Part shown: positions 27,921-62,704 of the stretch, one piece after another
Layout: every line of letters begins with the position of its first letter
Position numbering within the stretch: the first letter of the stretch is position 1
Source: Chelydra serpentina
Taxonomy: Eukaryota; Chordata; Testudines; Chelydridae
Reading direction: 5' to 3'
Assembly (NCBI GenBank): GCA_037349315.1
Contig: JBAIAC010000024.1
Span: 34,583,501-34,647,500, forward strand
DNA length: 64,000 nucleotides
Notes under the pieces: model-generated
Told to the model about the DNA's origin: nothing
Seen by the model: the letters and a program-made list of their open reading frames with translations, nothing else
The model's database searches: none
Made by a program: the position numbers and the translations under genes

Positions 27921-28116
27921 ATGGGCAGATATCCCTTCTTCGTGTTTGTGTTGTGTGGAGTATTTTTGCCAAGAGTCCTTTGTTTTCCACATGGAAACAC
28001 TACAATAGATTGTGATACTATGCTACCGCACCATGGAGGTGAACCACAAAAATCCACTCCACCATATTTTATTGCTGTATCTTTTGATAAATATGATCCA
28101 GGAAACGAAATCCAAG
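27921..28116 (+). CDS. Coding exon 1: signal peptide and start of Reeler domain
   Basis: The ATG at 27921 lies immediately after a strong acceptor (TTCTGTTTTTCCACAG), and the exon ends at GTAAAC with phase 1 (196 nt). Residues 1-21 form a hydrophobic signal peptide (MGRYPFFVFVLCGVFLP...) with probable cleavage near LC|F. The mature start FPHGN and CDTMLPHHG are typical of Reeler proteins. N26 is a sequon (NTT). An upstream non-coding exon is implied. Confidence 0.85.
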
Positions 28117-34100: not shown

Positions 34101-37100
34101 ACTCTTCCACAGTATGATCATCTCCTCTCCCTGGTCCCATCAAAGCCGTGCATCAGCCATAGGTTGAGACTATATGAATGTGAACAGGTCTGCCAAGGCC
34201 CCTCCAACCCTGGTGGATATTTGAGCAGATATCCACACGGGAGTCTATGCTTCTCCAAGCAGCTTTCATTTCTCTTCCGTGCCTTCTGATTTTCTATTTT
34301 GTTGATCCATAGCATGATGTTGGACATTAATATAGGAATTACAAAATAAAAAAGTTTCTAAAACTAATTACATACTCTTGAAACTTTTTTGACACCTTTT
34401 CATGGCTGCACCATGAATTCATACTGAAAATCATACATTTTCAAATAACTCTAACAAGAGTGAGTTTTCTTAGCTGAAAGAAATCTTGTGACTTTATTTC
34501 ATAATATACTGAAATATAATTTGCTAGAGAAAGTAAATCGTACTGATCTTATTTTCCCTCTAGAGCAACATTTGTTCAAGATTCAAAGAACTTCTGGGTT
34601 GGAGTTCTCAGCAAAACTGTCACTCCTATACATTCTCAGTCAGCCAATGTCACAGAAAGAAGGAATAAGAAGAAGGTATGTTTTGAGTTTATCTTTTTCT
34701 GAGTAGTATAAATAAACGTGGAAGTCAAAATATACTTGTTCCATGACAATGGGTCCCATCTGTGGTGTTTCAAATTGGGCATCCATAAACTGAGTCAGAC
34801 AAAATCAGTGGCTGCTTTGGAAAATGTGACCCTACTTACTTAATCCTCACAATACTAGAGTTACAGTAAGTATTATTATCCCATCTGACAGTAAGGAAAC
34901 TGAGCTGCAGAGAGTCTAGTCATTCTAGCCAATGAATACCATACAAGGAACAGGAGAGGGGTTAAATTACAGAGTCAGGTGATCCAAGAAGCATAAGCCA
35001 CATCATAAGTCCTGTCCTCCATAGCTACCCCAGGCCACAAGCATTGGGTGACTACACTGGATGTTCTTAGAAATGAAAGGTTAAGTATCCAGTTAATTTT
35101 CATTTTCAAAGAACTCCTCATACTAAACTTGCCCATAGTGTAGGGAGGTGAAGTAAAGGAAGAATAAACCAGGGGACCAGATCTTCCGCTGATGTAAATC
35201 GCCATTGTTCCATTGAGTTCAATGAAGCAATGCTGGTTTGCACCAGCTGCTGATCTAACCAAGAGTGAACATCTTTCTCTGGCCCTTTGTCTCACCAAGT
35301 AAATGGGAGTTTCTTTCCCGGGAAAAATATAATATCAAACAAGTTATTTTACAAAGTAATAACTGGCTTCTGTTTTCTTTATAGGCTTCACGGATTGTGA
35401 TTGAGATGGAATGTACCAAGGTAAGAACTATTTCTCTACATTTTCCCAGTGTCTTTTATTTTTTAATTGCATTGTGTTATTATTTGTTTTGTGGGAGCAT
35501 TTAAAAAATAATATCACCATGTGCATGAATATTTTTCTTCTGAATGTTTGGTGTGGCTCTCGCAGAAAATCTTAATAAGACAGACTGACTTCTAAAGGAC
35601 TGGCATTAATTTGAGGCTTTGATTATCTCAACTTTAGAATTCCCATCCTTCATACTCCTCATCCAGTAAGTTCTGGTCCATTCATTCTATTGATGCTATA
35701 GTAGGACATGGACAATGCCATTCAAACACTTTCACAAAAAGTTGACACTGCCTGTGGTTTCTACTCAAATCTGAGTGCAGTTTGTTTTTATTTTCGGAGA
35801 GATACCCTATCAGTTCTCATATCAGACCATTACATAGAGCAGGGTGATAAAATGGAAACAAACTCCTCTGGTCCTTCACTCAAACCAAGCATGAAAAATT
35901 ATTTATTTTCCTGAAACAATATGGTATTTATACAAGCCCTTTAAGAAGAAGTAATTGGATTCTGCTTTTCTTACAGAAAGGAGGAACTTACTCAAGTAGT
36001 GGTGGATGTATTCAGGTAAACATTCCTTCTCCAGAGAGCACTGACTCACTACTTGCCATCCACAAATGACAAGAATTGCTTACTTAGAGTTTCTCTCTCT
36101 CAAATTTGAACTGGTTGCAGCAAGGAGAAATGATTACTCCCCATTCATCAGAATTTCTAAGAATGTTTCTACTTGTGATAGGCAAAGCTATCACAGAAAC
36201 TGACCTATATCATGTAGTATATCTAACTCAATTTATTCTTTCCACTTGACAATTTGCCTTTGGGTGAAATAAAATCCGCCAAAACTTCTAGATATCTCTA
36301 TTTGTCATTCCTGCTATATCCTCCAGATGTTTCTCTCTAAGATCAGATAAGCTCAAGACTTTCTGCTGTCAGCTTACTTCCTTTATCTTCACTTTCCAGC
36401 CATAATGATTCCTTCAGGTTTTGTAGTTCCACCAATATCACTTATCTCACATATTCTGAAATCTTCCTTTCATTATACAATAATTTCTATATGAAACTGA
36501 ACAAAATATGAGTTTTGTTTAAGAAACAATAGGTAACAGCTCAGTGAAGATGTCTTTTGTTTTGCCTTTCTTGCTCCCAGCAACTATGCTATACATTTCA
36601 TACACTCCAATGGTTGTGTAGTTATATTATTAAATAGCTGTGTACAATCATTTTTCATCTGAACATTACTTAGTTTGGAACACCTAAAAGAATTTACCAG
36701 CTCAGGCTCACTCCTAGTGCCGGACATTAAATATGAGGCTGAAACCTCATATTTAGTAAGTAAATGGAATAATGCCAATACAAACCCACTGGAGATCTGG
36801 CCCAATATGTATATTTAGGTTTGTTTGTGTGGAGAGGGTTACGTTCTCTATAGTAAACTTTTAAATGGTGTAGGTTGGTGGAATGAAATGACCAAAAAAT
36901 GTCCCCTGTGGTATTTCATTCCACAAGGTAGTTCTTTTTTTTCCCCTGAAGCAGCAATGTATATAGAACTAGTCCTTTACAAAATTAATAATTGATTTCT
37001 GATTTGTTTACAGGGTGGATCCTCTGGTTCCTCTCAGACTAGCTATTCTATTGGTCAAGTAAGTACCCTAGCTCCCCTCTATTTATAATTTTGTCCCAGT

Positions 37101-40100
37101 GTAGCTCTTAGTATACTTGAGTATCCAAAATTATAGAGATAGAGACTGACTGATGTTATTCAACACTGTGGTAAAATATGTCTCTGTCAGTAAGCTCAGG
37201 GATTCCAAACAGTTACTGATCCACAAATGCATGGTAATAGTCAATAATCATACAGGATCTAAGTCCTTGCAGGTTAACTTGTTATTGAACTCAGAACTCA
37301 CCATTCATATCCTCACAACAAACATGGCCACCTCTACTTTATTAACCAAGCATTAAACTGATACTGTCAACAAAACAATAAATAAATCCTTGTTTCCTTA
37401 TTTGTGGTGTTAATGCTATCTGGAATTATTAAAAATGAAATTATTCCACATAGCTAACTTGTTCTTTCACCCCTTAAATAGTCACCTTTTTTTTTTCATT
37501 CCGCTTGGATAATAAAAATAGAATGTGCAGTTTCTCTTTTGTTTCTAGCCATTTTCATTTTTTCCTTCTAAGTCATTTACAAAATGTTACAAAACTTTCT
37601 GGCCTAATGTCCTTGACATTCACTTAATTCAATAATATGTGCAACCATCTCCAGTGCACAGCATATGACCCCTTCAACACGGAACTACTTTTGTAATTGA
37701 TGTCATTGTCCATTCCTATTGGCCTTTTTAAATTCCAAGTTATATATGTGTTATTATGGAAAAATTTACATCTTTTTATCCAAGTTGTTTTGGGCACAAT
37801 TATATTTGCACTTACTTTCCTTCCTAGTAGATATGGGCCTTTTTAAACCCACAGGGTCAAATTCATTCTGTTGGCTTGAACTGAGTTACACTGTAGATGT
37901 ACTTAGTGTATTTATTAGTGAGTTATTTGGGAATAGTTTCCACTCCACATACCCCATCCCCAAACCTTGTTGATTCCAGTTATATCCAGATATTGTGACA
38001 CTCTCTGAATAGGTATTTCTTAAGCAACACTGGTACACAGCAAATACTGATTTCCTTAATCTTCAATTTCAAGCAATAATTATTCTGTTTCTCTCTCTTT
38101 TCACCACGTGTATAGACTGGGGTTTGGATTGGCATGCCTTGTGTATGGATCTTTTTCCTGGATTTTGCTTACACTTAGGAAATCTTACTAACTCAAACTG
38201 ACTCCTGAAGGAGACGTATTAAACTGCTACAGCCCTAGATAGCTCACTTTCATTAGAATTTCTCTCCTCCATGCCCAAAGCTCCCTGAAGTCAATGAGTT
38301 TCTTTCCATTGACCTCATTTGGATTTGGATTAGGCTCCATATGACTAGTTCAGGTCAAATGTCCCCTCAGCACATGTAGTTCTTTGGTTCTGATGACTCT
38401 TCAGCAGAATCTGTCTGCTACCACTATATCAAGCCTTTCTAGTGTAAAACAATAGATAAAGGCAGACAAAATGGAATGTGAAACTTCTCTTACCCTTCAC
38501 CTTACCACACACACAGGAAGGTTATTTTTCTAAAAAGCTATTGTGTTCTAACAAGCCCTTCTACAAAGAAATAGCTGATTTATGGTTTCTTTACAGGATG
38601 TGCAAGGTTCCTCATTGGCTGGCAGTAGCTATATGAGCTGTTTCTCCAATGTATTAGAGTTGGTTTATTTATTTATATAGTTGATCAGCATTCAGCTCAG
38701 TAAGGGCCTGATTCAAAGTGAATTGAAATCAATTGACATCAATGGGAGTATTTCAATGGGCTTTGGTTCAGGACCACACTGCAATGATAATTATCAGTTT
38801 CATTGGGTTCCTTGCTTTTTGTTGTTGAGGCTCTTGCTGAAAGGTCACATTATTACAAACAGAAAGCAAGAGAATCACAAACCTCTTTTTCCCTTGTCAT
38901 CCCAGTAAATTGCTTTCTTCTATTTGTTGCATTTCAGACCTCTTCTTCCCCACCTCTTTGCAGTTTGCAAAGTCACCTCACTAAATTGCATGTACAACAA
39001 CTGTTTTTCTCCTGATTTTCTCCTCACATGCACTTCTTGGAAATTTTACTACCTCAGTCTTGACTCTTGAAGGCGGAGTATGGAATTTTTGTGGGCTTAC
39101 ATACCTCACCCTCCATTAAAATTTTCCTCTCCTCCTTCATGCTCCCTCATGTGATTAGCTTGGCTCACAGCATTTATTCCAAACCCTGGACTATTTTCCA
39201 TTTTCAGTACCTTTCAGACAAACAGAACTTTTTCTCCAGTAAAATGATACCTTCTATAGTGTGGGCTTGAAATCTCACTCATATGTAGTTAATTTACTTT
39301 TATTTTCAAAGAAATCTTTCCTTTGTGTCCAAATTTTATTTTTATTAACATGTTAATTACAGTGGTTCCTGAGGGCCAGCCAAGACTAGAGCCCCGTTTT
39401 GGTAGGCACTGTACAAACATAGAGAAGTAGAAGATCCTTACTCCAAAAAGCTTAGTATCTTAAAGAGGCAAGACAGACACAGGATGGAGGAAGGGGTAGA
39501 GCACACAAGCAGAGTGATGGCAACAACTATTATGTTCCATGATTTTTTGTGGGGTGGTATTTAAGATGGGATCAACTACATGGAAGGAGAAGGGAGGGGA
39601 AGGGGCAAGGGGGAGAGGTAAGAGAAGCAGGTGTGGATGAAGTTGAGGTGAAGAGACTATGAAGGAGGAGGAGGAGGAGGAAGGAAGGTTGGATGAACAG
39701 TCAGTCAATGCAAGGCAGAGAATATCCAGTCAAAACTGTAGAAAGTTATTTGAATGTCTGAAGGACCAAAGGTCCCTGCCTCTGCCTATATTGGCTGGCA
39801 GCTCTAGCTGTTTAGTGTCTCCAGTTTTCTCCCAAGCCCCATGACAAAGGGGAAGGGAGGCACTGCCTGGGTCCTAGTGCCCCCAGAGTCAGTATGGGGG
39901 CCATAGGTGCTGACTCCGTGGGTGCTCCGGGGCTGGAGCACCCATGGGGAAAAATTGGTGGGTGCTCAGCACCCACCGGCAGCTCCCCGCCAGCCCCGCA
40001 CCGGTTACCGGAACACTTACCTTCGCCCCGGACGCCGGGTGACGTTGTGGGGCGAGGGATGGTCCCAGCTGGGTCCATTTGACTGCATCTCGCCCAGTGC

Positions 40101-43100
40101 TGCTTTTGGCTGCTTCTGCCCCTATCTGCTAGAATCTCAAATTGAAGGAGGGAAATTCTTCTGAGGAGAAGGGCAGGAGAATGGATGGAGACGTCATGGA
40201 ACGTGGAACTTGCTCTTGTCCTTCACCTCACCAGGGAGGTAGCCAGAGGAAGTTCTCTGTTCCTAAAACAGTAGCTCAGTTTAGCAAGCCCTGTTACAAG
40301 GAAATAAATTAATTCCAATTTCTTTATAATTTATCCACATTTCACAGGACAGCAATAGCTATTCCCAAGTCAGCCCTCTTTCTCTAGTTTGTAGAGGGTA
40401 TTCCCACGATGCAACTTTTAGTAACTTCCCAAGTGGATAATTAGTTCCCTACTTCTGTTGTGAGGGGTTTGATGAAGGGCTACATGCCTAAGGATAAAAT
40501 TGTATGGAAACTAAGAGGATGGTTGAGGTTATGCTACTGAAATGGAATTGTTCCAGGCAATCACATCATATGCATGTGCCACAGTTACTGACTCAAACTG
40601 TATGATAGCGTCCACCTGTACATATCCCCAGTCTCCACATACGGCTCAATGGCAATGCAGACTTTTGGTGCTGAAAATTGCAGATTTCTTTTCCCGTGTT
40701 TCATAAAGCATGGAAATAACTGGCATCTTCTTTCTTTCAGGTTGGAGTCATTTCTCCAGGAGGCAGCCGGGGTGGATGTGTCCCAGTAAGCACTTTTCTC
40801 ATCTTCACTGAATTTTGTCCCAGTGTGACTATTTTAACTACAATGCTTAGCTATCGGTTACATTAGTGTTAATGTGGGAGCTTTTGTTTTATAGCAAAAG
40901 TAATGTAGAAAAACTAAGAGATGATTTTGACAATGTACTCAAGTAGAATTGACTCAGCTAATCAGAAAGCAAGGCTGCTGCCCAGTTCATAGACTCATAA
41001 CATTCATAGACTGTGCCTGTCTGTGTATTCTGATTTGCTGCTGACCTCAGAATTCAGCAGCTATAAATAACTCCACAATAAAAATGGCTACTTCCATTTT
41101 ATATTCCTTCCTGTATTAAAGGAACACTGTTGGGTTAAAAATCTTAGACAAGTAAATATAATTATCTGGTAAGGGGCTAAGCACACTCAGTTCCTAATGA
41201 AGTCTGTGGGTTGAGAACACTCAGCACCTCACAGGACTGAGTGCTTGGAGAATATCTGAAACATTCATATCATGAGAGATTGGAATAAATAAAACTCACT
41301 TCTGTATGAATTTTGAATTCAGCAGAGAAAAACTAAAATTTAGTAATCAGTGTTTACCTTTATTTTGGAAAAAACATCCTTGCTTGTGTTACTAATAACA
41401 CATAAGGTTGTTAATATTAAAAGGACTTTTAAAATATGCATTACTTTTCACCATTTATGCTGGTTCTTGACATTTTACATTTCATTCACTTTGAACAGTG
41501 AAAACAGAAGGCTCCATTTAACTTTCGTTTCTATTCAGTTTAAGTGAGAAGGATGGGGGGAGAGATAGCTCAGTGGTTTGAGCATTGGCCTGCTAAACCC
41601 AGGGTTGTGAGTTCAATCCTTGAGGGGGCCATTTAGGGATCTGGGGCAAAAATTGGGGATTGGTCCTGCTTTGAGCAGGGGGTTGGACTAGATGACCTCC
41701 TAAGGTCCCTTCCAACCCTGATATTCTATGATTAAGCTTTCTCTTTTACATGCACCAGCAAAATACTACAATGTTGGGCTGTGTAAGGGTGTCTACAAAC
41801 CCCATACTGAGCATAAACAGAAGGGAGAGGAGAGTCTCTCCTCTTTACAAGCAAAAAGTCAAAGAGGCAGGCACCCACAGCTGCAACCAGTAAAGGAAAC
41901 AAGGCCTGCTATAAAGAGGAGAGGAGAGTACAGAGAAGGAAGAGGAGGCAGAAAGGCCTGGAACAGCAAAGGGGCAACCTGCACCAGGCTCTCCCCACAG
42001 CCAAGAGACTGAAACGGACTGCTAGGTCCAAGAACTGCCTTGACTGAGAGCAAACTAAGAAGGGCCAGTCAGGAGAAACAGAGGTCCCTCAAAAGACCAT
42101 ACCAGGAGACAGTGGCAGGCTGCAAACATAATGTGGGTGCTTTTTTAAAGCAAATTTAAATTATTTTTCTATTAAACAATCTATTTACAAAATCTGTCAA
42201 ACATTTCTGTTAATACCAGCATATATTAATTTATTTAGGGCCAGAATGTGGCTAGCCCTTTTGTGGAGGTATAGTGCAGAACTGGGGGGAGGCATCAGGA
42301 TCTTTTGCATCTCCCAGACTTGAGGACCAGCCAGAGTTGAGGTTCTGTGTACTTGTGCTTACTCTCCTCTAGTAATTACAACAATAACAAAATAAGTGCC
42401 TTCTCTTTCCTCTACAGGGCACTAGTGGCATATACAACAAATATGGCTGTAAAGATGTAAGTATTCGTTTGCCTCTGTATTTGATGTTTTCTCCCAAAAT
42501 GCTACTCAATAACTCAACACTTTGTTGCAAATTGTATTAAATCTATTACAGTCATTGTGTTGCAGAGTTAGATTACTCTGGATAAAGATGAGGCAGGAAC
42601 TAGAGGATGTCTGAGGTTAGTTAGCATTATGCTGAAACAAAATTGTCTCAGCTAACCAAGCACAAATGTGTTGTAGGGTTACTGACCCAAAAGTATATGC
42701 TAATTGTCAATAACCATTCCACTGATTTGTTAGTGGTCTGATATGTCAACATCCGTATCTCTAAAACAAGAAAGGTAACCATAATTGTTAGTTTCTATCC
42801 CCAGTTCCATATTCTGCATAACTATTCCCTACCTTCATCTGAAACTATGCTCTTTATATTACTCTTAGTCGAGTACTGCCTGCTTTTACGATTCCTCTTT
42901 TAAATATTGTCATACACCCCACATTGTAGTAAATCACACTCACTGATCAATTTAGTCCTCCTTTACTTGGTGGAGTTCCCTTTGCATGGCTGAAAAACAT
43001 TTCCCATAATGATTTTTGTATTAATCTAGAGAACTTATATACTGTCAACTTCCCTTTTTTCTTATAATTATATTGAAATAACATTATTTTCTATTTCTAT

Positions 43101-55100: not shown

Positions 55101-58100
55101 CTCCTCTAGTATTTCCCTCCCACATGTAGGCAAATAAAAATAGGTGTCTTTTGAGCAAGCAGTAAAATATTCAACATACAAATCCATTTACAAGGAAATA
55201 AATGGTTTCTTCACAAGGTTGTCTTCATCATAGAGCAGCGGTATCTTTGGCCAGGTAACAACCTTGCAAACAAACAGAGCCTATTTGACTAAAAATATTA
55301 CATTTCTCAAAATGAAAATTGTCTATTCAGTTTACTTAATTATTGGAGGAACCCCACCCGTACTACACCAATCCATAGTGCAGGGTGGATGAACAAAGAG
55401 AGGCAAACATGGAACCGCCTGTGGTCCTTCACTTCACCAAACAATTTATGTTTCTTTTCTTGAAATAGTATTGTATTTAAAAAATCTATTTAACAAGGAA
55501 ATGACTAGGTGTCTTGTTTCTTTACAGGGTGGACAAAGAGTCAATCCTTGTGATCGAGTGAGTATTTTTCCCTTCCATACTTCCTCCCACCACCCTCCCA
55601 CTGTATTTATGTCTTTACCTAACTTGCCTCTTAGTCCAACTTGCAACAAAACATTTACTTACTACTCCCATTAATTGTTGTGCAGCAGCTTTTGTTGAAA
55701 GGTAGCATTACTATGACGAAGGTAATAGAAAGATCTAGAGGATGATGGTGGCTACTTAAATGATAAGTACAGGGTTCTTCCTTTTTTACGAGGTAATAAC
55801 AATATTCTGGGTTGAGTAAACTCTGAGGTTGAAAACCAAAGTTTATAGAAGGAAAACAACTGTGTGGCCAGAGGTGGAGTTTACTAGCCATTATATGATT
55901 TATTACCAAGTTGGAAGGTTGTTCAATTGTTATTATTTATTACACTGACATTTTAATTTGTTTTTTTTAAAGTTTCAATTAAATAGAAGAAAAAATACAA
56001 ATAAACTGGGCTGTAAAACTGCTGAGACACAAATTGTTTAAAAATTAATTTCCTATTCTATGTTCATGTTTATTTATATTTGCCTTACCCAGGTCAGTAA
56101 GGCATTTCTCCACAGTATAACTCTAATATGTGTGTTTGCATTGCATTGCAAGACTGAATTGGGGTGCTCGAAAGACTGGAATTCCCTCACTGCTTAAAAA
56201 AAAATGGAAACAAGAGTAGTTGGCCCATTAGAGTGAAGACTGTTATCCAAATGTTGGATATGTCCCTGAGAAGTGACTTCAGGGCAGGAAGTTTTCTATG
56301 TGGAAACCATATGTACCAAGGGTGACATTTTCAAAGGACACGGAATAGTTAGACACACGTCTCTTATTGAAAGTCAGTGGTCACCTTACTCTTATTTTTG
56401 CCTTTAAAAAATCTGTCCCAAAGTTCTCCAGGCACACAGGTTTCAAATTTTTAGCCAAAGTAAGGCACCTACAGACAAGTGGCCTGATTTTCCAGCACCT
56501 CCCTCTCCTATAGATGTGAGTGGTAGCTAGAGATGCTCATCACCTCTGAAAGTCATCAGTTTTACCTAGGTGCCTATAATATGTGTGACGCTGTTCCCCA
56601 TAAAACTTTATGGGGAGATGCTTATAAATGTATATATGTAACTAGAATATGTTTTATGCTACATGTGCCATGTAACATATCTCTGTGAAAGTTATGACCT
56701 ACTGAATTTATTCCTCCTGTTTGTATGCATGTATCATTGTTGTAGTTGAAGTTATGAATATCGGTTGTATTTCTTGAGAAAGGAATGTGCAGGTTAAGTG
56801 CCCAATCAAGAAGCACTTAACAGACAATAGAACTTGCAGTCAGCAATCCACATTTGAACTTTGCCAGGAATGTGGCTGGTCTGGAACTGAGTTGTGCATG
56901 TGACTGGTCCATGTGACCCCAACTCCATTTGGTAACTGGATGCTACACAGGGAGAGGGAGGGGTGTCCACCCAGAGGAAAAAATCTATTTAAACCCCGAG
57001 GAAACCCCTCACTGGGTCTAGCAATCACTCACCCCCCTAACGTCTTTGTCCTCTGTTCAGTCTCTTTCAGGTCTCCTTGGGGGGTGGAGAGCTTCTTCCT
57101 TTAGCCAGCTCAAGACAAAATGGAGGGGTTTCCTCGGGGTTTAAATAGATTTTTTCCTCTGGGTGGACACCCCTCCCTCTCCCTGTGTAGCATCCAGTTA
57201 CCAAATGGAGTTGGGGTCACATGGACCAGTCACATGCACAACTCAGTTCCAGACCAGCCACATTCCTGGCAAAGTTCAAATGTGGATTGGTGACTGCAAG
57301 TTCTATTGTCTGTTAAGTGCTTCTTGATTGGGCACTTAACCTGCACATTCCTTTCTCAAGAAATACAACCGATATTCATAACTTCAACTACAACAATGAT
57401 ACATGCATACAAACAGGAGGAATAAATTCAGTAGGTCATAACTTTCACAGAGATATGTTACATGGCACATGTAGCATAAAACATATTCTAGTTACATATA
57501 TACATTTATAAGCATCTCCCCATAAAGTTTTATGGGGAACAGCATCACAATATGGATTTGGAGGCCTATCCTTAGACACACAGATTTGAAAATATTGGCC
57601 TTAGTACTTAAGTGCCACATTATGCAATTTATACAAGACGTTGTGCAGAGCTAGACCACCATAGGGAGATTTTAGGAATTGTGCTCAAATTGTGCCTCCT
57701 AGAGCCCCCAGGGCTACAAACTACCCAAAGTGGACCTGGAGAGAGGAGTGCAAGTTGGGGCCATACCTTCTTCCCCTCTCCACACACCAGACAGTGTCAA
57801 AGCGCTCTGGTTGTGACACAATCCCCCCTGGCAGTTTCTTCTAAATTGGTATGGCTTGGCATTGCCCTTCATATACGTCAATGTATAATTCACTAATGTG
57901 GCCCATAATTATCCAGGGGTATTTTGAGTTTGTTTGTTTTTTAACTTTCCTAAAACCTCCATTTTAGACCTTTCATTTAGTGTCTGGTGATGATCAGTAG
58001 GGGCAAAATAAGGACTAGGCAACTCTCTGCAGCCTCTCCCCTTACTGAGTAGATAAATACAAATTGTTTTATTTTCCTGAGATATGGTTGTATTCAAACA

Positions 58101-61100
58101 ACCCTGCTTACATGGAAGTAACTGTTGTTGGGTTTCTTTTCAGAGTTCATCCTCCTACAACATCATTATCTGTAAACTGGTAAGCACAATCTTACCACTG
58201 TGATTTAAATTAAAGATTTGTCCTGATATGCCTCTTATGGTAACCAGAGATGGAGGGCTAGATTCTGGATGGTCCTTACACAGGCATGCAGTGGGGCGGG
58301 GGAAGAGTTTTGAAGGATTACCACAAAAAGAATGACCAAAATTGCAGCCCCTTCACAAAGGGGAGCGCTGTACCCTGAAGGGACGGATAGGAAGGGGCAT
58401 AACTTAACCATGGCTCTGCCCTCCCCATGGTGGCACATGTGTATGATGTACCCCTTTAAAAGGGGTGTAGCAGTTTGCACCTCACTGCACTGGAGAAGTG
58501 TGGGAAGCTTTATGAGACAGAATGTGTCTTCACTGCTCCCTATCAATGGTGAAAAGTAAAATAGGGGCTTATCCAACACTGTTAACTCAAGCAAAACTCT
58601 CATCAGGTTAATATTCTGGTAAAACACTTCAGATTCCTCTGTAGTTAAATAACTACATAAATATATACATATGTATATACATTTGTCTGGTTTTCCTAGG
58701 AGATGCTATTAGCTCAGATTGACACCTAAAGGAAGATCATTGAATGTACACACACCTGGACACATCAATGTTCATTAGAGTTTGCCTCTTCTATGCCTCT
58801 GTATAGATTCAAGGCCACTCAGTATATTTTCTCTGGAGGAGAGTTGATTACCATTCAGTAAATGGAGCTCTTCCACCAGATATGACCCTTTCACAGGAGT
58901 ATACTCAACTTTCCATACTGTAGCCTAATGGTACAGAGACAAAGCTTGTACCCTTCTCTGTATATTCCTTCCACCATCCAGATAAACACAGATGGGTTTC
59001 TTTTCCTGAGGCAGTATGGCATTTAATCAAGCCTCTTCACAACAAAATTACCAATTTGTGGTTTTTTTACAGGGTCATTCTTCTACCTCACAGAGCAGCA
59101 ATACCAATGGCCAAGTATGTACTTTTATATCCATTCTATGGGGGGTGGGGTTTGTGGGGGGTTTTTTGTTTGTTTTGTTTTGCTTTTAAGCACAGCAAGC
59201 TTTAAGCAGCCAAAATCTTAAAACACAGATTTAGTATGTTGGTACCATTGGAGGTGTGAGAGCTGTAAAGTGTGTTTTAAAAAAAAGAAGTTTTTTTTAA
59301 CTACAGCAATCAAATTTGTTTTCTGTGAATGTTCTAGCAAAGCACGCGCATTTGTGAAGAGCCAACACAAATGGTCCAAAGTCAAATAAAGAGCCATTGG
59401 GTTGACAACAATTATTTGTTTTATTCTTAAACAAGAGCAGAAGGATGCTGTGTAATTACTGACAATGAACTCTAAATCAGTTAGCAGATGTATCCATGCA
59501 GTGGATAAATCCCTTTATGGTGATTTGTTTCTCTCAGAACTCAATATATACAGATCATTATCAGCTAGGACCTCCACTGTTTCTTGTTTGTCTAACATTA
59601 ATGTTAATTTACTCTTAAGTTAGATATGTATTCAAGTTGCTGAGGTTCATACAATTAATTTAAAAGCCAAGGAACCATTTCTCACATCTGTGCTTATTCA
59701 GACTGTCCTCTTTTTACTCCTGTCCTAACTTTATGTTTATTATTGAATAATTCTGGAACAGTTTTCACTTCCTCTGTTTCTTTTTCTTTCATCTTTTTGG
59801 CCTCTCTGAGTTTTTCCCAAATTAATTTCAGACAAGCACATTTTAAAAAGAAAACACACCTATTTTCATTAGGGTCACTGTTGCTTAGGGAAGCTGTCAT
59901 ATAGTTTCCAACCCTTTTGCAATTCTAGTCATGTCCTCTGTGTTATTCAAATGCCAAGAATCATTCAAATTTAGATTCGTTCTTAAATGTTGTACGGACG
60001 CAATTATGTGGTTTATCCTTTCACAAAGAAATAACTGGCTTCTTTAGAGAAATCCGTCCTCCTCACAAAGCCAGATAAACCATATTTATTTTTCTCTCAA
60101 TTTTTTCCCTGAATGTTGCTTGTAATAGTTGAGCACTCCTAAGAAAACTTACTAGCTCAGACCCGCATCTAAAGGATGGCCATTCCATTGATGGGATCAT
60201 GGATACCTCATACTTTATTAAAGCCTCAGGTGCACTTCATATATTCACATGGACTTATGAATACAATGTAAACGAACAGCGCTCTTCCATCTGAAAATCA
60301 AAACTGTCTCTGTGTGCTCAAAACACAACATAACATCACTTTAGCTTCTGCGGGTCCCATATTAAATCAGTGGAGTGGCATCAAAAGTCACTAATACAGT
60401 GTTCTCCACCTGTTCCTTTCCTCTCACAAGTAAGAAAATACCAACAGACGTCCCTTGCACAAATAGTACAGTATTCAAATGTGCTTTTAAAATTTTTTTT
60501 ACAATGAAATAAATGGCTTCTGCTTCCTTCACAGGGTCAGTCCACTTTCTCACAGGGCAGCCAAGTAACCTCACAGGGCAGCCAAGTAAGCAATCTTTTC
60601 CCTCTGCTCTTAATTATCTTCTGAATAATCAATCGCTTCCCTACTGTTTGGATTATGCCCTTTAGTTTTGGTATAATTTGTTGTTGCAGGGTTAAATTAC
60701 TCTGGGATAATATATAGAGTGAGGGCTGATGGAGGGGATACAGAATGCAGAAATGCTGTTTGTAACTGGTCCAAACTAGAATTGTCACAACATAGGCAAA
60801 TCACTGCACTCTTCTTCACTAGTTGCCCTGAAATTATGTCAAAATCTCTACTGGGGTAAATTGGCACTACTCTATTGAAATTAATAGTGCTATGACAATT
60901 TATATCAGCAAAGAATTTGGCCTTATTTGTCTGTGTCAAACATGACTTCCTTGGCTTCCCGTTTCTTCCTGTTGAACGGGATTCAAAGATGCTAGTAGTG
61001 CATTTTCACCAGAAGAACAGTGATAGCTGGTGAGCTTTGGAGCAAGTGGTGCAGAGAAGGGAAAAAAAAGTCTGGTCCCATGAATAACCTACTTGGCCCC

Positions 61101-62704
61101 TGGAGTCTGCACCAGGGCATGTGAAGCTGGTTCCTGAAGTTTATATGTGGACTGGAGGGGAGTTAACTGTAGAGCGTGCTAAAATTGTTGCAAGCTAACT
61201 TCTCCACGTTGGCCCTGCTGGTGCACTCTAGATCAGTGGTTCTCAACCTATTTACCATTGTGGGCTGCTTTGCAGCTCTCTGTGTGTTATGTGGGCTGCA
61301 TCCATATAATATATATATACACTATATACATACATATATGGTATTGCTTAGAGCAGTGTTTCCCAAACTTGGGACGCCGCTTGTCCAGGGAAAGCCCCTG
61401 GCGCGCCCGGCCTGTGTGTTTACCTGCCGCATCCCCCTGGTTCAGCCAGTCGTGGCTTCCACTGGCCGCAGTTCGCTGTGCCTGGCCAATGGGGGCTGCG
61501 GGACGTGGTGGACAGAGTTTTTCAAGAGTTATTTAGACACTTAAGAGCCTAAATCCCATTGACTTTCAATGAGATTTGAGCTCCTAAAGTAACCTGAGTC
61601 TCTTTTGAAAATGGGAGTTAGTTTCCTAAGTCACTCATGTGCTTCTGAAAATTTTATCCCAGGTCCAAACCCCATTGCAGTCAATGAGTCTTTCCATTGA
61701 CTTCAGTGGACATTGGATCAGGCCCTAAATGTATAAGTACCTTCTTCACTTTCATTTTGAAAGGTAAATTTTCCATAGTGTAGGTGGCAAGATAAAGGGA
61801 GGTAAGTTGGAGAACTTACTCTGTTGCATCTCTCCTTCAGACAGAACCCTGTATATTTATCTGCTTGAAACATTATTTCTACAATGAAAATAAATTGTTG
61901 GGATTTTTTTTCCCAACAGGGTGGATCATCTTCCTCTGGTGTCAGTAAGGGTTGTGGACAGGTAAGTCCCTTTCCTCCTCTATATGTGGAGATTTGACTC
62001 AATTTGCTACTTAGTATTAAAACATTTTGTTATAAATTGGATTGTGCCCATTAACTGAAATAGGAGCTTTTTGTTTCCATTGTTGTGCCTGAAAATATAC
62101 AGTGCAGAGAACCAGAGAGACTGACATTGGCTACTGTACTGAACAGGAATGGCCTCAGTTAGACACTAGTGTATAAATAATAGGTACAGTTAATGACTCA
62201 TCCATTTTGAGAATAATCATTAACCATATAGTAAATAAGTACCTGAATTCGGATACTTTACTCCTCTACTCTAAAATCACAAACAAACATAGCCATCTGT
62301 GAATATTTCTCAACTAAATGTTGCTTCATTTAACACAACTATAATCAGAGATACTCTCTCAGGCTGACTCCTCAAGAATGACAGTTGAATTAGTAGTTTC
62401 CTGGTCAAAGATGACCCTTCATTAGAATTCCATTTCCCCATGTGCACACTTGAAATGAGCTCAGGTCCAGTAACTCTGTATTGAATAGTGAGAACCTAGG
62501 GCTATGTGAGGAGAAAAAGGGAGTCAAATATGAGGTCAACGTAGTGATAGCGAAACTAGGTAAAAGAATATAGTGGAGTTAATGAAAAAGACAGATTGAG
62601 ACTAGAAGCTTCAGGAGGAAAGATAAGTTGTTTTGCAAGGAAATGAATGGTTTGGGTGTCTTTTTACGCAGGGTACTTCATATGACAGCAATCCCTGCCA
62701 CCAG
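27921..62704 (+). CDS. Reeler-domain secreted protein with micro-exon repeat array (3' end beyond window)
   Basis: This is a spliced gene whose first 179 residues, from four ordinary exons, form a signal peptide and a Reeler domain. Family landmarks are CDTMLPHHG, DPGNEIQVTL, GFQGFHLQAR, PVGSF, AVSH, TTTWIAP and FRATFVQ. These best fit the FRRS1/REELD1 group of Reeler proteins; I cannot tell which, so no symbol is given. Sixteen intact phase-0 micro-exons follow (606 nt, 202 residues), giving 381 residues in the window without a stop. The micro-exons encode short Ser/Gly/Gln/Tyr-rich peptides and look like tandem copies. Four N-glycosylation sequons (N26, N96, N109, N170) and the signal peptide indicate a secreted or extracellular product. 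If it belongs to FRRS1, DOMON and cytochrome b561 domains would be expected downstream; this is untested. Confidence 0.8.
29222..29813. repeat. Old hAT-type repeat interrupted by a younger MITE
   Basis: Shares phrases AAAGTCATG, TTGCCTTCTGGTTTTTGAGTCTTTAGG and GAGGGCTAGAAACTTTC with 10583-10855. Its right end, GTTGGCAACACA, was the target of the MITE at 29506-29802, whose 8-bp duplication is GCAACACA. Confidence 0.55.
29506..29802. mobile_element. GC-rich hAT-type MITE, long form, with 8-bp duplication
   Basis: Ends CAGTAGTGTAGGCAGG and CCTGGCTATGCTACTG are inverted, and GCAACACA flanks both sides (29498-29505 and 29803-29810). The interior folds back: CTCCGGGTCTTCGGCGGCAC on one arm faces GCTGCCGAAGACCCAGAGCG on the other. 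It is a sister of 45631-45932. Confidence 0.85.
30560..31155 (+). repeat. LINE L2/CR1-clade 3' relic
   Basis: The upstream half resembles the end of an L2/CR1-type second reading frame (CTTGCCTCTGGCTCCCTATT, GCCTTCAAGACCCTGCATAA, TATGGAATGCCTTCACC). The downstream half has the tail TTCTTTGGGAAAGGGACCAGG followed by TAATAATAA. Frames are broken. Confidence 0.6.
31911..32047 (+). CDS. Coding exon 2: Reeler domain, middle
   Basis: 137 nt between TGTTTTCTCAG and GTATGT; phase 1 in, phase 0 out. It encodes residues 66-111, VTLKGTSEHGFQGFHLQARE through PVGSFNITDP to ACHNVS, the best-conserved core of Reeler domains. Sequons at N96 (NIT) and N109 (NVS). C107 is one of the likely disulfide cysteines with C31. 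Confidence 0.9.
32590..33015. repeat. Probable non-autonomous DNA transposon relic
   Basis: Ends with GACAAATCTGCAGCCCTA and contains paired phrases TCATGGTAAATTTAGTAAAAA and TCACGGACAGAGAAATCAC, as in a reptile DNA-element family I recall with TAGGGCTGCAGATTTGTCACGG ends. The left boundary is unclear. Confidence 0.35.
33107..33198 (+). CDS. Coding exon 3: Reeler domain, C-terminal part
   Basis: 92 nt between TTTTTATTACAG and GTATAT; phase 0 in, phase 2 out. Encodes residues 112-141 and two bases of Arg142. Motifs NSAVSHTNSE and TTTWIAPSN match the late strands of Reeler domains. Confidence 0.88.
33430..33615. repeat. Ancient self-complementary repeat
   Basis: Includes GCCCAGTCCTACAAACCTCTACTCACA and GTGAGTAGTCCCATACATGAGG...GATTTCAATGGG. 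A related layout is seen at 43170-43270. Highly degraded. Confidence 0.35.
34564..34675 (+). CDS. Coding exon 4: end of Reeler domain, basic linker
   Basis: 112 nt between TTTTCCCTCTAG and GTATGT; phase 2 in, phase 0 out, residues 142-179. The motif RATFVQDSKNFWVGVLSKT completes the Reeler fold. A sequon (N170, NVT) is followed by the basic run ERRNKKK, which ends the exon and could be a protease-sensitive linker; that is inference. From here onward all exons are phase 0/0. Confidence 0.88.
34856..34970 (-). repeat. MIR SINE fragment
   Basis: Plus-strand phrases TATTATTATCCCATCTGACAG and AAGGAAACTGAGCTGCAGAG correspond to the MIR core on the minus strand. Diverged. Confidence 0.6.
35175..35260. 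repeat. Short palindromic dispersed repeat
   Basis: Hairpin GACCAGATCTTCCGCTGATG...CACCAGCTGCTGATCTAACC, same family as 13548-13611. Confidence 0.6.
35385..35420 (+). CDS. Micro-exon 1 (36 nt, Cys type)
   Basis: ASRIVIEMECTK, between TTCTTTATAG and GTAAGA, phase 0/0. Cys is the third codon from the end. It is less Ser/Gly-rich than later ones and could be the ancestral linker exon. Confidence 0.75.
35977..36015 (+). CDS. Micro-exon 2 (39 nt, Cys type)
   Basis: KGGTYSSSGGCIQ, between GCTTTTCTTACAG and GTAAAC, phase 0/0, Cys third from end. Directly follows another Cys-type exon. The upstream box ACAAGCCCTTTAAGAAGAAG is the intron-unit signature shared across the array. Confidence 0.78.
37014..37058 (+). 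CDS. Micro-exon 3 (45 nt, GQ type)
   Basis: GGSSGSSQTSYSIGQ, between GATTTGTTTACAG and GTAAGT, phase 0/0. No Cys; ends Gly-Gln. Follows a Cys pair. Confidence 0.8.
37059..38596 (+). other. Array intron without other features
   Basis: Intron-unit sequence only; the frames at 37153-37356 and 37719-37973 lack splice support. It leads to a decayed micro-exon. Confidence 0.5.
38597..38632 (+). pseudogene. Decayed micro-exon: donor GT changed to AT
   Basis: After a good acceptor (GGTTTCTTTACAG), DVQGSSLAGSSY is in frame, but the next bases are ATGAGC where a GTGAGC/GTAAGC donor is expected; the sequence after it (TGTTTCTCCAATGTATT) matches the start of other array introns. Without the donor, the frame runs into a stop (TAG at 38678). 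Probably skipped. Confidence 0.65.
39345..39470 (-). repeat. Old LINE/MIR-type tail
   Basis: Phrases AATTACAGTGGTTCCTGAGGG, GTAGGCACTGTACAAACATAG and AAAAAGCTTAGTATCT form the complement of a LINE-like tail seen elsewhere in the window. Confidence 0.45.
39902..40075. repeat. Non-autonomous transposon, left-hand portion
   Basis: Begins CATAGGTGCTGACTCCGTGG with a tight hairpin (GGGTGCTCCGGGGCTGGAGCACCC), then GGTGGGTGCTCAGCACCC. It appears to be the left part of the family whose right part lies at 6929-7290. Confidence 0.5.
40348..40368 (+). pseudogene. Decayed micro-exon with mutated acceptor and weak donor
   Basis: The expected acceptor TTCTTTACAG reads TTCTTTATAA at 40320-40329. Alignment with the exon at 59073 suggests the original exon began there and included GGxxxATCCACATTTCACAGGACAGCAATAGC. 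A cryptic acceptor (CATTTCACAG) would leave DSNSYSQ, followed by GTCAGC, a weak donor. In frame, but probably not used efficiently. Confidence 0.5.
40741..40785 (+). CDS. Micro-exon 4 (45 nt, Cys type)
   Basis: VGVISPGGSRGGCVP, between TCTTTCTTTCAG and GTAAGC, phase 0/0, Cys third from end. First of the second Cys pair. Confidence 0.8.
41554..41733 (+). mobile_element. tRNA-derived SINE with CR1 tail (cryptodiran turtle type)
   Basis: The head has a Pol III A box (TAGCTCAGTGG, 41566-41576) and B box (GGTTGTGAGTTCAATCC, 41603-41619). The tail from about 41655 is nearly the same as the CR1 3' end at 10960-11040, finishing ATTCTATGATT. SINEs of this build are known from cryptodiran turtles and use the CR1 machinery through the shared tail. 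It is the strongest taxonomic marker in the window. Confidence 0.88.
42418..42456 (+). CDS. Micro-exon 5 (39 nt, Cys type)
   Basis: GTSGIYNKYGCKD, between TTTCCTCTACAG and GTAAGT, phase 0/0, Cys third from end. Completes the second Cys pair. Confidence 0.8.
43590..43628 (+). CDS. Micro-exon 6 (39 nt, GQ type)
   Basis: SAVSVNTGMSYGQ, between GGTTTGTTTCCAG and GTAGGA, phase 0/0. The donor lacks the usual A at +3, so it may be weaker. Like micro-exon 3 it follows a Cys pair and ends Gly-Gln. Confidence 0.75.
44587..44616 (+). CDS. Micro-exon 7 (30 nt)
   Basis: SVFSGGAVQK, between TGTATTCTTCACAG and GTAAGC, phase 0/0. A dispersed palindrome begins 31 bases after its donor. Confidence 0.75.
44647..44733. 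repeat. Short palindromic dispersed repeat
   Basis: Hairpin GACAGATTCTCTGCAGGTG...CACCAGCTGAGATGCTGGCCC, same family as 13548-13611, directly downstream of micro-exon 7. Confidence 0.6.
45546..46125. mobile_element. Degraded MITE interrupted by a hAT MITE
   Basis: The outer element (ACCAGTCTACACTGCACAGC at the left; GGGCTGTAGTTCAGG, CATCTACACAACTATTTTTAG on the right) belongs to the GTCTACACT group and is split by 45631-45932. Confidence 0.45.
45631..45932. mobile_element. GC-rich hAT-type MITE, long form, with 8-bp duplication
   Basis: Ends CAGTAGCGTAGCCAGG and CCTGGCTGCGCTACTG; perfect flanking GGGCTCAT (45623-45630 and 45933-45940). The central fold-back (CTCCGGGTCTTCGGCGGC facing CGAAGACCCGGAG) matches 29506-29802. 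Confidence 0.88.
46160..46300 (+). repeat. MIR SINE fragment
   Basis: CCTTGGGCAAGTCACTTAGC followed by CATCTGTAAAATGGGGATAA is the MIR core and 3' half. Confidence 0.8.
46403..46441 (+). CDS. Micro-exon 8 (39 nt, Pro-rich)
   Basis: PVSYPESNPYPPE, between TGGTTTCATTACAG and GTAAGC, phase 0/0. It departs from the Ser/Gly pattern with five prolines, and has no Cys. Confidence 0.75.
47093..51209 (-). mobile_element. hAT DNA transposon, 4.1 kb, with 8-bp duplication
   Basis: Left end CAGGGGCAGCCCTAGACTAG and right end, in complement, CAGGGCGGCCCGTCC are inverted. Further in, CACCCTAGGCGAACCATG and the complement of CACTTAGCACCCTAGAC extend the similarity. Flanks are ACAAAGAG (47085-47092) and ACAAAGAC (51210-51217), 7 of 8 bases identical. 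A transposase relic occupies the minus strand. The insertion split an array intron after that unit existed. Confidence 0.9.
47572..50208 (-). pseudogene. hAT transposase (zinc-finger/DUF4371 type), broken
   Basis: From an ATG at 50208 (MAERGKRKPPGAEYRK) a stop follows at once, with another near 49975. Then come the TTF-type zinc-finger region (RDPASWPRCDD, later FAASCLEIKQ), a region like DUF4371 including GQGYDNGTNMKGK near 48810-48845, where the Asp of GYDNG may be catalytic, and at the C-terminus the hAT dimerisation motif ASGERSVSKLKLIKTYL (47572-47838). It resembles transposases whose domesticated relatives include ZMYM-type proteins. Multiple stops and frameshifts make it inactive. Confidence 0.85.
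51353..51636 (-). mobile_element. Penelope-like element fragment with hammerhead-like motif
   Basis: On the minus strand, the motif at 51445-51484 reads GCAT-CCGATGA-A-GTGGGT...ACCCAC-GAAA-GCTT-ATGC, the three-part hammerhead layout with a 4-bp stem I. The plus-strand left edge TTTCAGTGTAGTAGCCGTGTTAGTCTG equals the end of 63669-63799. Sequence to 51636 appears to be upstream, possibly coding, element sequence. Confidence 0.6.
51881..51898 (+). CDS. Micro-exon 9 (18 nt, shortest)
   Basis: RKTFPS, between GGTTTCTTTTACAG and GTAAGC, phase 0/0. The sequence is basic, not Ser/Gly-rich. The well-preserved intron-unit context on both sides supports it, but at 18 nt it depends most on splice enhancement. 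Confidence 0.6.
52367..52567. mobile_element. Short-form hAT MITE inserted in a long-form relative
   Basis: Starts CAGTGGCGTAGCCAGG, ends GCTACGCTACGG, and is flanked by CTCCCCTT on both sides (52359-52366 and 52568-52575), a perfect 8-bp duplication of the host element's own sequence. Confidence 0.82.
52875..52994. mobile_element. 120-bp MITE with TA target duplication
   Basis: Ends GGGTGACCAGATGTCCC and CTGTCTGGTCACCC are inverted, flanked by TA (52873-52874 and 52995-52996). This fits a Tc1/mariner-type non-autonomous element, though TA duplications alone are weak evidence of class. Confidence 0.75.
53096..53362. mobile_element. Harbinger-type MITE with TAA target duplication
   Basis: GGCTATGTCTACACTGTGAG at the left, GTGTAGACATACCC in final position at the right, and TAA on both sides (53093-53095, 53363-53365). 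It is the cleaner relative of 19268-19586. Confidence 0.82.
53639..53680 (+). CDS. Micro-exon 10 (42 nt)
   Basis: ALANSGYGSIIHSQ, between GGTTTCTTTACAG and GTAAGC, phase 0/0. No Cys, ends in Gln. Confidence 0.8.
53988..54074. repeat. Short palindromic dispersed repeat
   Basis: Hairpin GGCCAGATCATAAGCTGGTG...ACCAGCTGAGGATCTGGCCC; part of a similar sequence recurs at 54451-54521. Confidence 0.6.
54185..54220 (+). pseudogene. Decayed micro-exon: donor GT changed to AT
   Basis: SSSSYERKVHTQ follows the acceptor TGATTTCTCTGCAG, but ATGAGC stands where the donor should be; the following CATTTTCCCCTCTATACTTATAG matches other intron starts. Same kind of lesion as 38597-38632. Confidence 0.65.
55234..55254 (+). 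pseudogene. Micro-exon remnant with shifted acceptor
   Basis: The array acceptor TTCTTCACAG reads TTCTTCACAA at 55208-55217, and a TAG lies in the old frame. That TAG could itself act as an acceptor (GTCTTCATCATAG), leaving SSGIFGQ in frame before GTAACA. Either dead or rescued as a 21-nt exon. Confidence 0.5.
55528..55557 (+). CDS. Micro-exon 11 (30 nt, Cys type)
   Basis: GGQRVNPCDR, between TTGTTTCTTTACAG and GTGAGT, phase 0/0, Cys third from end. First of the third Cys pair. Confidence 0.8.
56584..57548. mobile_element. Near-perfect fold-back element (965 bp)
   Basis: Arms 56584-57009 and about 57124-57548 are inverse copies with very few differences (for example C/T near 56589 and one G/C near 56845), separated by about 114 bases. 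Identical 64-codon frames occur on opposite strands in the two arms. AATATG flanks both sides (56578-56583 and 57549-57554), so the entire palindrome may have inserted as a unit. No transposase is visible. Confidence 0.8.
58144..58179 (+). CDS. Micro-exon 12 (36 nt, Cys type)
   Basis: SSSSYNIIICKL, between GGTTTCTTTTCAG and GTAAGC, phase 0/0, Cys third from end. Completes the third Cys pair. It starts like the decayed copy at 54185 (SSSSY). Confidence 0.8.
59073..59114 (+). CDS. Micro-exon 13 (42 nt, GQ type)
   Basis: GHSSTSQSSNTNGQ, between GGTTTTTTTACAG and GTATGT, phase 0/0. Ends Gly-Gln after a Cys pair, as micro-exons 3 and 6 do. Confidence 0.82.
60048..60074 (+). pseudogene. Decayed micro-exon: donor GT changed to AT
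   Basis: After CTGGCTTCTTTAG, RNPSSSQSQ is in frame, then ATAAAC replaces the donor. Third case of the same first-base donor change. The preceding TTTCACAAAGAAATAACTGG is the intron-unit signature. Confidence 0.6.
60535..60585 (+). CDS. Micro-exon 14 (51 nt, internal duplication, two donors)
   Basis: GQSTFSQGSQVTSQGSQ, between CTTCCTTCACAG and GTAAGC, phase 0/0. The 15-base TCACAGGGCAGCCAA plus GTAA is present twice, so an alternative donor (GTAACC) at 60565 would give a 30-nt exon ending at 60564, also in frame. It is the longest exon in the array. Confidence 0.8.
60865..60922. repeat. Short palindromic dispersed repeat
   Basis: Hairpin GGGGTAAATTGGCACTACTC...GACAATTTATATCAGC around AATTAATA; same family as 13548-13611, worn. 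Confidence 0.45.
61234..61515. repeat. Two hAT-type repeat fragments around a TA-rich run
   Basis: CAGTGGTTCTCAACC at 61234 and CAGTGTTTCCCAAACTTGGG at 61354 are typical hAT 5' ends. The second continues into GC-rich sequence to about 61515. Between them is an ATATATAC-type microsatellite (about 61300-61345). Right ends were not found. Confidence 0.6.
61515..61735. repeat. Ancient dispersed palindromic repeat
   Basis: TTTTTCAAGAGTTATTTAGAC, AAATCCCATTGACTTTCAATGAG and GGATCAGGCCCTAA match the family at 1715-1897. Confidence 0.5.
61920..61961 (+). CDS. Micro-exon 15 (42 nt, Cys type)
   Basis: GGSSSSGVSKGCGQ, between TTTTTTTTCCCAACAG and GTAAGT, phase 0/0, Cys third from end. First of the fourth Cys pair. 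Confidence 0.82.
62672..62704 (+). CDS. Micro-exon 16 (33 nt, Cys type), last seen
   Basis: GTSYDSNPCHQ, between TGTCTTTTTACGCAG and GTGAGT, phase 0/0, Cys third from end. Completes the fourth Cys pair. The open donor shows that the gene continues past the window. Confidence 0.8.

Follow-up and report, generated by a model that had tools for sequence, protein, structure and literature searches.

Among the proteins described with a Reeler domain, F-spondin (SPON1) continues from this domain into other folded domains and not into a low-complexity tail, and Hdd11 is a secreted invertebrate protein that contains Reeler only. Small exons have been multiplied in the vertebrate proteins collagen, elastin and troponin T, which have other folds and sequences. 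FRRS1 combines Reeler with DOMON and cytochrome b561, and the invertebrate proteins tick PIXR and shrimp LvReeler are secreted and Reeler-only, with no micro-exon stalk mentioned in the available portions of their descriptions. The schistosome micro-exon genes (MEGs) encode secreted or membrane-anchored proteins by many short symmetric exons that can be skipped in frame, and about 80% of their coding region lies in symmetric exons of 6–36 bp (PMC5825161). The aphid bicycle genes, putative insect effectors, also contain many micro-exons of one phase, the internal exons being in phase 2 (PMC9168663). These systems are compared here with a locus of the turtle Chelydra serpentina (contig JBAIAC010000024.1, positions 34,583,501 to 34,647,500 of the forward strand; this entire stretch of 64,000 nucleotides is called the window, and all positions below are counted within it), where exons for a Reeler domain are followed by a long array of micro-exons. 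Membership in the Reeler family, the only family to which the product belongs, is known ground; a Reeler protein with a stalk coded by micro-exons appears to be new.

Four exons on the plus strand (27921-34675) were read as the Reeler head and were found to join in frame to the micro-exon array (35385-62704):

27921..28116, plus strand, Reeler exon 1; open reading frame with donor, start codon, signal-peptide-like start and beginning of Reeler
31911..32047, plus strand, Reeler exon 2; AG/GT, frame-consistent join, tblastn with P0002 and P0005
33107..33198, plus strand, Reeler exon 3; AG/GT, frame-consistent join, tblastn with P0002 and P0005
34564..34675, plus strand, Reeler exon 4; Reeler domain ends here and exon ends in phase 0, tblastn with P0002 and P0005

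Exon 1 matched the turtle homologue P0002 at 92% over 65 amino acids (tblastn). The window model, which has 388 residues and consists of the four Reeler exons and 17 micro-exons, the 3' end of the gene lying outside the window, matched Pfam Reeler (PF02014) at residues 31-154 with an expect value (E) of 4.3e-35 (121.5 bits against a cut-off of 21; profile positions 1-131 of 131), and no other Pfam domain was found in this model. The nearest solved sequence was that of F-spondin (E=0.0013). Compared with 11 aligned turtle models, identity over aligned residues was 91, 90, 89, 86, 88, 86, 88, 72, 82, 77 and 85%, the lower values (72-85%) being those of Pelodiscus, Chelonoidis, Emydura and one incomplete Gopherus model.

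The nearest Reeler outside this family among the matches was that of FRRS1, the Pelodiscus protein (P0079) matching window Reeler exons 1-3 at 47-58%. Where FRRS1 has cytochrome b561 and DOMON, however, the turtle gene has the micro-exon stalk, and identity with FRRS1 was rejected because Reeler was the only Pfam domain of the window model and P0079 matched only the Reeler exons at E<0.05, with the 3' end beyond the window judged from P0002 and P0003. Among the matches listed, those that were neither FRRS1 proteins nor fusion-like models had PF02014 only, or nothing. Both genes were noted in Pelodiscus, as P0008 (the stalked Reeler protein) and the separate FRRS1 P0079, whose common part is Reeler; P0008 and P0079 may lie on one chromosome, as both list a longest contig of equal length (65814100). 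The name Hdd11 also occurs among the protein matches.

The array comprised 21 homologous exon-intron units on the plus strand, of which 17 were intact (AG acceptor, GT donor, open, 18-51 nucleotides (nt) with a mean of 37, always a multiple of three, and phase 0 at both ends) and four were decayed (38597, 54185, 55218 and 60048). Presence of AG in 21 of 21 units is circular, since acceptor boundaries were placed at AGs. One intact unit, 40348, is doubtful from turtle alignments, so that 16 intact exons remain, separated by introns of 556 to 5439 nt. An earlier note on this DNA, made from its letters alone, had counted at least 16 such exons, placed them at 35385..62704 and attached them to Reeler exons, and all of this agrees with the present results, the two end positions falling on the outermost array exons of the window. 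Homology among the units was evident from profiles made of 20 units each (exon with flanks of 75 and 60 nt) and searched for the omitted unit, which was re-found in 20 of 21 cases at E<=2.6e-7, the exception being 60048, where only the upstream box was found (2.1e-4); otherwise the best non-unit site had an E of 0.02-0.08. In the following list, E is the value for the omitted unit, and the turtle and other sauropsid models are predicted proteins.

35385..35420, plus strand, micro-exon 1, ASRIVIEMECTK; E=5.6e-15, in turtle models
35977..36015, plus strand, micro-exon 2, KGGTYSSSGGCIQ; E=3.1e-15, in turtle models and 7 of 13 squamate, crocodile and bird models
37014..37058, plus strand, micro-exon 3, GGSSGSSQTSYSIGQ; E=1.4e-19, in turtle models
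38597..38632, plus strand, decayed unit, donor AT for GT; E=1.2e-14
40348..40368, plus strand, doubtful unit, DSNSYSQ, weak donor GTCAGC; E=5.2e-16
40741..40785, plus strand, micro-exon, VGVISPGGSRGGCVP; E=1.1e-11, in turtle models
42418..42456, plus strand, micro-exon, GTSGIYNKYGCKD; E=2.6e-7, in turtle models and 11 of 13 others (10 squamates, crocodile)
43590..43628, plus strand, micro-exon, SAVSVNTGMSYGQ; E=1.2e-19, in turtle models
44587..44616, plus strand, micro-exon, SVFSGGAVQK; E=1.8e-10, in turtle models
46403..46441, plus strand, micro-exon, PVSYPESNPYPPE; E=8.2e-18, in turtle models and 13 of 13 squamate, crocodile and bird models
51881..51898, plus strand, micro-exon (18 nt), RKTFPS; E=1.5e-8, in turtle models
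53639..53680, plus strand, micro-exon, ALANSGYGSIIHSQ; E=4.9e-20, in turtle models, unrecognisable in Pelodiscus
54185..54220, plus strand, decayed unit, donor AT for GT; E=1.2e-14
55218..55254, plus strand, decayed unit, 37 nt, stop in donor frame; E=7.9e-13
55528..55557, plus strand, micro-exon, GGQRVNPCDR; E=7.4e-17, in turtle models
58144..58179, plus strand, micro-exon, SSSSYNIIICKL; E=3.2e-15, in turtle models and 10 of 10 squamate models
59073..59114, plus strand, micro-exon, GHSSTSQSSNTNGQ; E=2.4e-19, in turtle models
60048..60074, plus strand, decayed unit, donor AT; profile touches 60008-60044 only, E=2.1e-4
60535..60585, plus strand, micro-exon (51 nt), GQSTFSQGSQVTSQGSQ; E=3.8e-15, in turtle models except sea turtles and Pelodiscus
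61920..61961, plus strand, micro-exon, GGSSSSGVSKGCGQ; E=3.8e-12, in turtle models
62672..62704, plus strand, micro-exon, GTSYDSNPCHQ, last in the window; E=3.5e-14, identical in 8 of 13 turtle models, matched in 12 of 13 others

The micro-exon that adjoins Reeler (35385) thus also bears unit flanks (E=5.6e-15). A common class of lesion, A for G at donor position +1, was noted in decayed units 38597, 54185 and 60048 (ATGAGC, ATGAGC and ATAAAC). A perfect inverted repeat (56584-57010 and 57123-57549; 427-nt arms, 100% complementary, 112 nt apart) occupies part of the intron that separates micro-exons 55528 and 58144; it is either very recent or an assembly artefact and would fold as a long hairpin in pre-mRNA.

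Chance occurrence of exon-like strings was ruled out by the leave-one-out profiles together with a scan for acceptor-donor cassettes of 18-51 nt, for which the 27 kb upstream (plus strand) served as control. In this control, 16 of 51 cassettes were a multiple of three in length and seven were also open, whereas the array span held 33 open cassettes of such length (16 of them at listed exons) as opposed to seven in the equal length upstream and one on the minus strand of the array span itself. At the control rate of 14%, the binomial probability of 17 intact units in 21 is 7e-12, a figure to be read with boundaries that were picked by eye. Origin of the units from a dispersed repeat was likewise rejected, as no further copy better than E=0.05 was found with the profile on either strand of the 64 kb.

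Duplication of exon-intron units, as claimed in the earlier note, was borne out by the flanks as well as by the profiles. Thus, when non-overlapping half-introns were compared by blastn (E<=1e-3, 210 unit pairs per side, register defined as an offset within 150 nt), 55 in-register plus-strand matches were noted (44 upstream, 11 downstream) compared with four out of register and one on the minus strand, although most of the 210 pairs per side gave no match. Mean identity of matched flanks was 64% downstream and 68% upstream, and homology reached about 420 nt from the exon on either side with the exception of one of the 55 matches (between the flanks D40741 and D62672; 92.5% over 40 nt, 765-944 nt out), which is probably an inserted repeat. 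The majority-base fraction was 0.77 next to the acceptor and dropped to 0.39-0.57 between -120 and -180; on the other side it was 0.70 at the donor and 0.41 beyond +120. Flank distances averaged 0.50 as opposed to 0.64 for unrelated controls (minimum 0, because random picks overlapped or struck repeats), and no effect of neighbourhood along the array was found in them (Mantel r 0.04, p 0.32), so that the order of duplication is unreadable. Judged by these distances, the units are old copies. Compared with collagen, elastin and troponin T, the flanking intron homology of the turtle array is a clearer signal than shared peptide.

Relatives were sought in proteins at E<=1e-3 (59 of 7991, 50 of 345 and 28 of 148 scored candidates), by searches that reach only relatives sharing exact words. 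The best matches were turtle models with unrelated automatic names ("sericin 1-like", "hornerin-like"), and exon-by-exon mapping onto 13 predicted turtle models indicated that 16 of the 17 intact exons recur in the same order. All 16 were present in five models (Platysternon, Mauremys reevesii, Malaclemys and two of Gopherus), 15 in Lepidochelys and Caretta (P0006) and 14 in Pelodiscus; the other five models (Terrapene, Chelonoidis, Emydura, M. mutica and a second Caretta model) are either cut short or lack some of the exons. The turtle relatives run on past the last exon in the window, GTSYDSNPCHQ. A counterpart of 40348 was gapped out in 12 of the 13 models and, in Chelonoidis, aligned at 43% of seven residues, a placement that is probably an alignment artefact. 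No insert of at least 5 amino acids was listed at the 38597 junction in the 13 turtle alignments, and the 13 other sauropsid models gave no convincing match to this unit; at the 54185 and 55218 junctions the sole insert of such size was a stretch of P0011 from a later exon. Both models of Gopherus tortoises (P0005, P0012) carry an exon-sized insert of 14 amino acids at the junction of decayed unit 60048, in the G. evgoodei model a block of 64 residues is present in two copies that agree at 62 of 64 positions, and in the M. mutica model three omitted stretches start and end exactly at window exon borders while a fourth gap does not. In Malaclemys, Terrapene, Pelodiscus, Chelonoidis and Emydura, on the other hand, several gaps miss exon borders by 2-7 residues. 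From the inserts, omissions and duplicated block in these models, array exons seem to have been gained and lost among turtles. Some models are fusion-like, P0011 (M. mutica) containing GPCR-like sequence and P0064 and P0066 (Caretta, Hirundo) containing a nucleotide-sugar transporter that we take to be SLC35A3-like; these fusions hint at neighbour genes, and the P0011 and P0064 pieces had no match in the window at E<0.05.

The array does not look confined to turtles. In 13 other sauropsid models (geckos, other lizards, python, crocodile, swan and sparrow), units were compared with shuffled peptides at p<=0.02, and 4-7 of 21 units matched per model where about 0.4 chance matches are expected, in window order (Kendall tau 0.90-1.0, p 4e-4 to 0.083). 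The last exon in the window, GTSYDSNPCHQ, was identical in swan also. Thus, the array looks sauropsid-wide from collinear matches in lizards, python, crocodile and two birds, and it probably predates the sauropsid radiation. The view of the stalk as possibly lineage-specific, put forward in the earlier note, is therefore not supported; counterparts in turtles, crocodile and birds, which the note had proposed to seek in genomes, were found here as predicted proteins with units in order, and the remark in the note that no Reeler protein built this way was known to it agrees with searches of the open-licence literature, which listed no description of a micro-exon-stalked Reeler protein, predicted models being present in databases under unrelated names. 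No mammal was named among the relatives matched, which is no proof of absence in mammals since the search needs shared exact words. As for decayed units, nothing was found for 38597 and 60048 in the 13 squamate, crocodile and bird models; 54185 reached p 0.017 in Python only, falling on the counterpart of 58144; and 55218 compared with ISSSGSSxYG(Q/K) stretches of three geckos gave p 0.02, 0.04 and 0.27, its best match (p 0.007) lying at another place in Sceloporus. In the gecko Euleptes europaea, model P0069 holds two different Reeler-plus-stalk proteins one after the other, which looks like a fusion of two tandem paralogues. Models of four colubroid snakes (P0070, P0071, P0075 and P0076) end in SYGQMKI, SYGQMKI, SHGQMEI and SYGQMKI, respectively, close to where exon 43590 has its counterpart; these ends look as though an exon ran on into its intron past a lost donor. 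The python model (P0074) has a longer tail.

The 209 array residues include 23% Ser, 17% Gly, 8% Gln and 4% Cys; nine of 17 micro-exons end in Gln and seven of 17 start with Gly, partly because the CAG|GT and AG|G splice consensus is read in phase 0. A structure model was made for the turtle homologue P0002 in place of the window protein (31 aligned sequences), and its predicted local distance difference test (pLDDT) scores were about 70-85 over most of Reeler as opposed to about 20-30 over most of the array, which is thus predicted to be disordered. The head of this model had the Reeler beta-sandwich fold, with the F-spondin Reeler (PDB 2zot, 2zou and 3coo) as best Foldseek match (E=4e-10, template modelling score on the target up to 0.74) where the match in sequence had an E of about 1e-3. 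At the C-terminus, which lies beyond the window and was read from relatives by hydropathy, a hydrophobic stretch with about five more residues after it was noted in P0001, P0002, P0003, P0005, P0008, P0009, P0011, P0012 and swan P0061; with P0004, where the end is shorter, nine of 13 turtle models carry the stretch. It looks like a glycosylphosphatidylinositol (GPI) signal or a minimal tail anchor. The end of P0006 is different, P0064 is a fusion, and P0007 and P0010 break off early; the sparrow model P0062 has another hydrophobic stretch at its end. The product would be a secreted, possibly GPI-anchored Reeler protein, and the repetitive extracellular stalk suggested in the earlier note remains probable in view of the signal-peptide-like start, the Ser/Gly-rich array, its predicted disorder and the hydrophobic C-terminus of the nine turtle models and swan.

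Taken together, these results are best explained by a real gene, probably ancestral to sauropsids, that would encode a signal peptide, a Reeler head, a disordered Ser/Gly/Gln-rich micro-exon stalk and, beyond the window, an end resembling a GPI signal (probability about 0.8). The array would have grown through tandem duplications in which an exon was copied together with as much as several hundred bases of the adjoining intron. Because intact units are all a multiple of three in length and phase 0 at both ends, units could be gained, lost or skipped without frameshift, and the stalk could therefore drift while the head was kept; the four or five units that look dead would represent losses. A conserved block that lies directly upstream of the exons (about -35 to -20), ACAAGGAAATAACT-like and possibly the branch point, may together with a pyrimidine tract help to keep such tiny exons spliced. 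At the cell surface, a spacer that is probably O-glycosylated and in part disulphide-linked would keep the Reeler head at a distance from the membrane; skin, feather, oviduct or mucosa is a guess at the tissue. REELD1, a human-named Reeler gene, is reported as upregulated in samples of green head feathers from male mallards (PMC8692775; cited by PMC11050116), a weak hint at tissue, as REELD1 may be another gene than the turtle Reeler gene; one hummingbird model among the matches is named RELD1.

Several observations weigh against this explanation. In a cruder test with outer-flank profiles (E<1e-3), nine of 21 units were recovered upstream and two of 21 downstream compared with two of 21 for the random control, and weakness of downstream flank homology was thus noted by profile and blastn alike. 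The gene is known here from DNA and predicted proteins, with its 3' end beyond the window and its genomic exon structure read in this window; the database proteins look like gene predictions, made by a method that favours open, splice-consistent models. The order of units is not significant by tau alone for four geckos with four matched units each (p=0.083), the Sceloporus and Python counts each include a decayed unit (55218 and 54185, respectively), and some chance matches per model are expected, as given above. Mean pLDDT of the P0002 model was 41.9. A hydrophobic tail is missing from the squamate models, the crocodile model and Caretta P0006, so that anchoring may be lineage-limited or the models incomplete.

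Three other explanations were weighed against the same evidence. The array could be a relic, skipped for the most part by transcripts of this species, with the gene making a bare Reeler protein. Four of the 21 units do look dead with a fifth in doubt, the four colubroid models end early in the tail, and the locus is known here from genomic sequence; however, 17 of 21 units are open, a multiple of three in length and AG/GT-bounded compared with seven of 51 open control cassettes of such length, five other turtle models contain the 16 exons and GTSYDSNPCHQ is unchanged in swan as well as in 8 of 13 turtle models, which leaves this explanation very improbable. The tail might instead be a folded or cross-linked part of a matrix, joined through Cys, Tyr and Gln by disulphide or transglutaminase links, and not a floppy spacer. 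One cysteine each occurs in eight of the 17 intact micro-exons (8 of 209 array residues), all 13 of the other sauropsid models match the aromatic/proline motif YPESNPYPPE, and the automatic names are loricrin-, filaggrin-, hornerin- and sericin-like. Against this, the array is predicted to be disordered, Reeler is the only Pfam match, and the terminal Gln and initial Gly are in part splice consensus, so that a matrix part seems unlikely. The names loricrin, filaggrin, sericin, mucin and DSPP were not accepted for the gene. As regards loricrin, filaggrin, hornerin and sericin, Pfam gave only Reeler for the window model, and these names probably follow composition.

Somewhat less doubtful, although still only a tentative possibility, is a vertebrate analogue of the MEGs in which alternative splicing yields many stalk variants and diversity is itself the function. 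Any subset of the intact units stays in frame, and the M. mutica omissions coincide with exon boundaries in three of four cases. Isoform names reach X29 in swan and X6 in sparrow, a hint of heavy alternative splicing, but these numbers, like the exon-omitting models, are predictions, several other turtle alignment gaps lie off exon borders and tandem duplication alone would also produce modularity. Compared with MEGs, the turtle array exons are longer (18-51 nt) and linked to Reeler; the 16 array exons account for 606 of the 1143 coding nt seen (53%), and six of 16 are no longer than 36 nt. A signal-peptide-like N-terminus here and, by hydropathy, a hydrophobic C-terminus in relatives may point to a secreted or surface-anchored product, such as MEGs have; we know of no sequence relation between MEGs and the turtle gene. 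The intact array exons also differ from the phase 2 internal exons of bicycle genes in being phase 0 at both ends.

Other features of the window included a match to DDE_Tnp_4 transposase on the minus strand (4570-4935, E=5.7e-21) and one to Myb_DNA-bind_4 on the plus strand (2534-2845, E=5.8e-7), perhaps a partner protein of this transposase; no Pfam match was found for the minus-strand frames 4980-5339 and 5246-5908. The 5.4-kb array intron contains several minus-strand open frames (47876-49971), together with a 66-nt sequence repeated three times (49889-50086). Pfam gave nothing for the three of these frames tested, and we take the region to be probably a decayed DNA transposon. Two tRNA-like starts of short interspersed elements (SINEs; 41555-41589 and 63614-63648) were 94% alike over 35 nt and presumably belong to a turtle polymerase III SINE. 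Rfam and ARAGORN tRNA scans of the window were empty, with no tRNA called at either start.

The array offers a readable record of exons accumulating and decaying within one gene, with dead units among live ones in a set of 21 whose flanks are recognisable and which have apparent counterparts across sauropsids, and it illustrates how a long disordered stalk can be added to a globular secreted domain one exon at a time with the frame intact. It also brings to light a conserved gene of reptiles and birds that has been hidden behind misleading names (sericin-, hornerin-, filaggrin-, loricrin- and mucin-like). More speculatively, and with doubt on our part, combinatorial frame-safe splicing together with exon birth and death may give sauropsids, in a surface protein retained since their common ancestor, species- and tissue-specific stalks on a constant Reeler head, which would be an independent counterpart of the strategy of schistosome MEGs.

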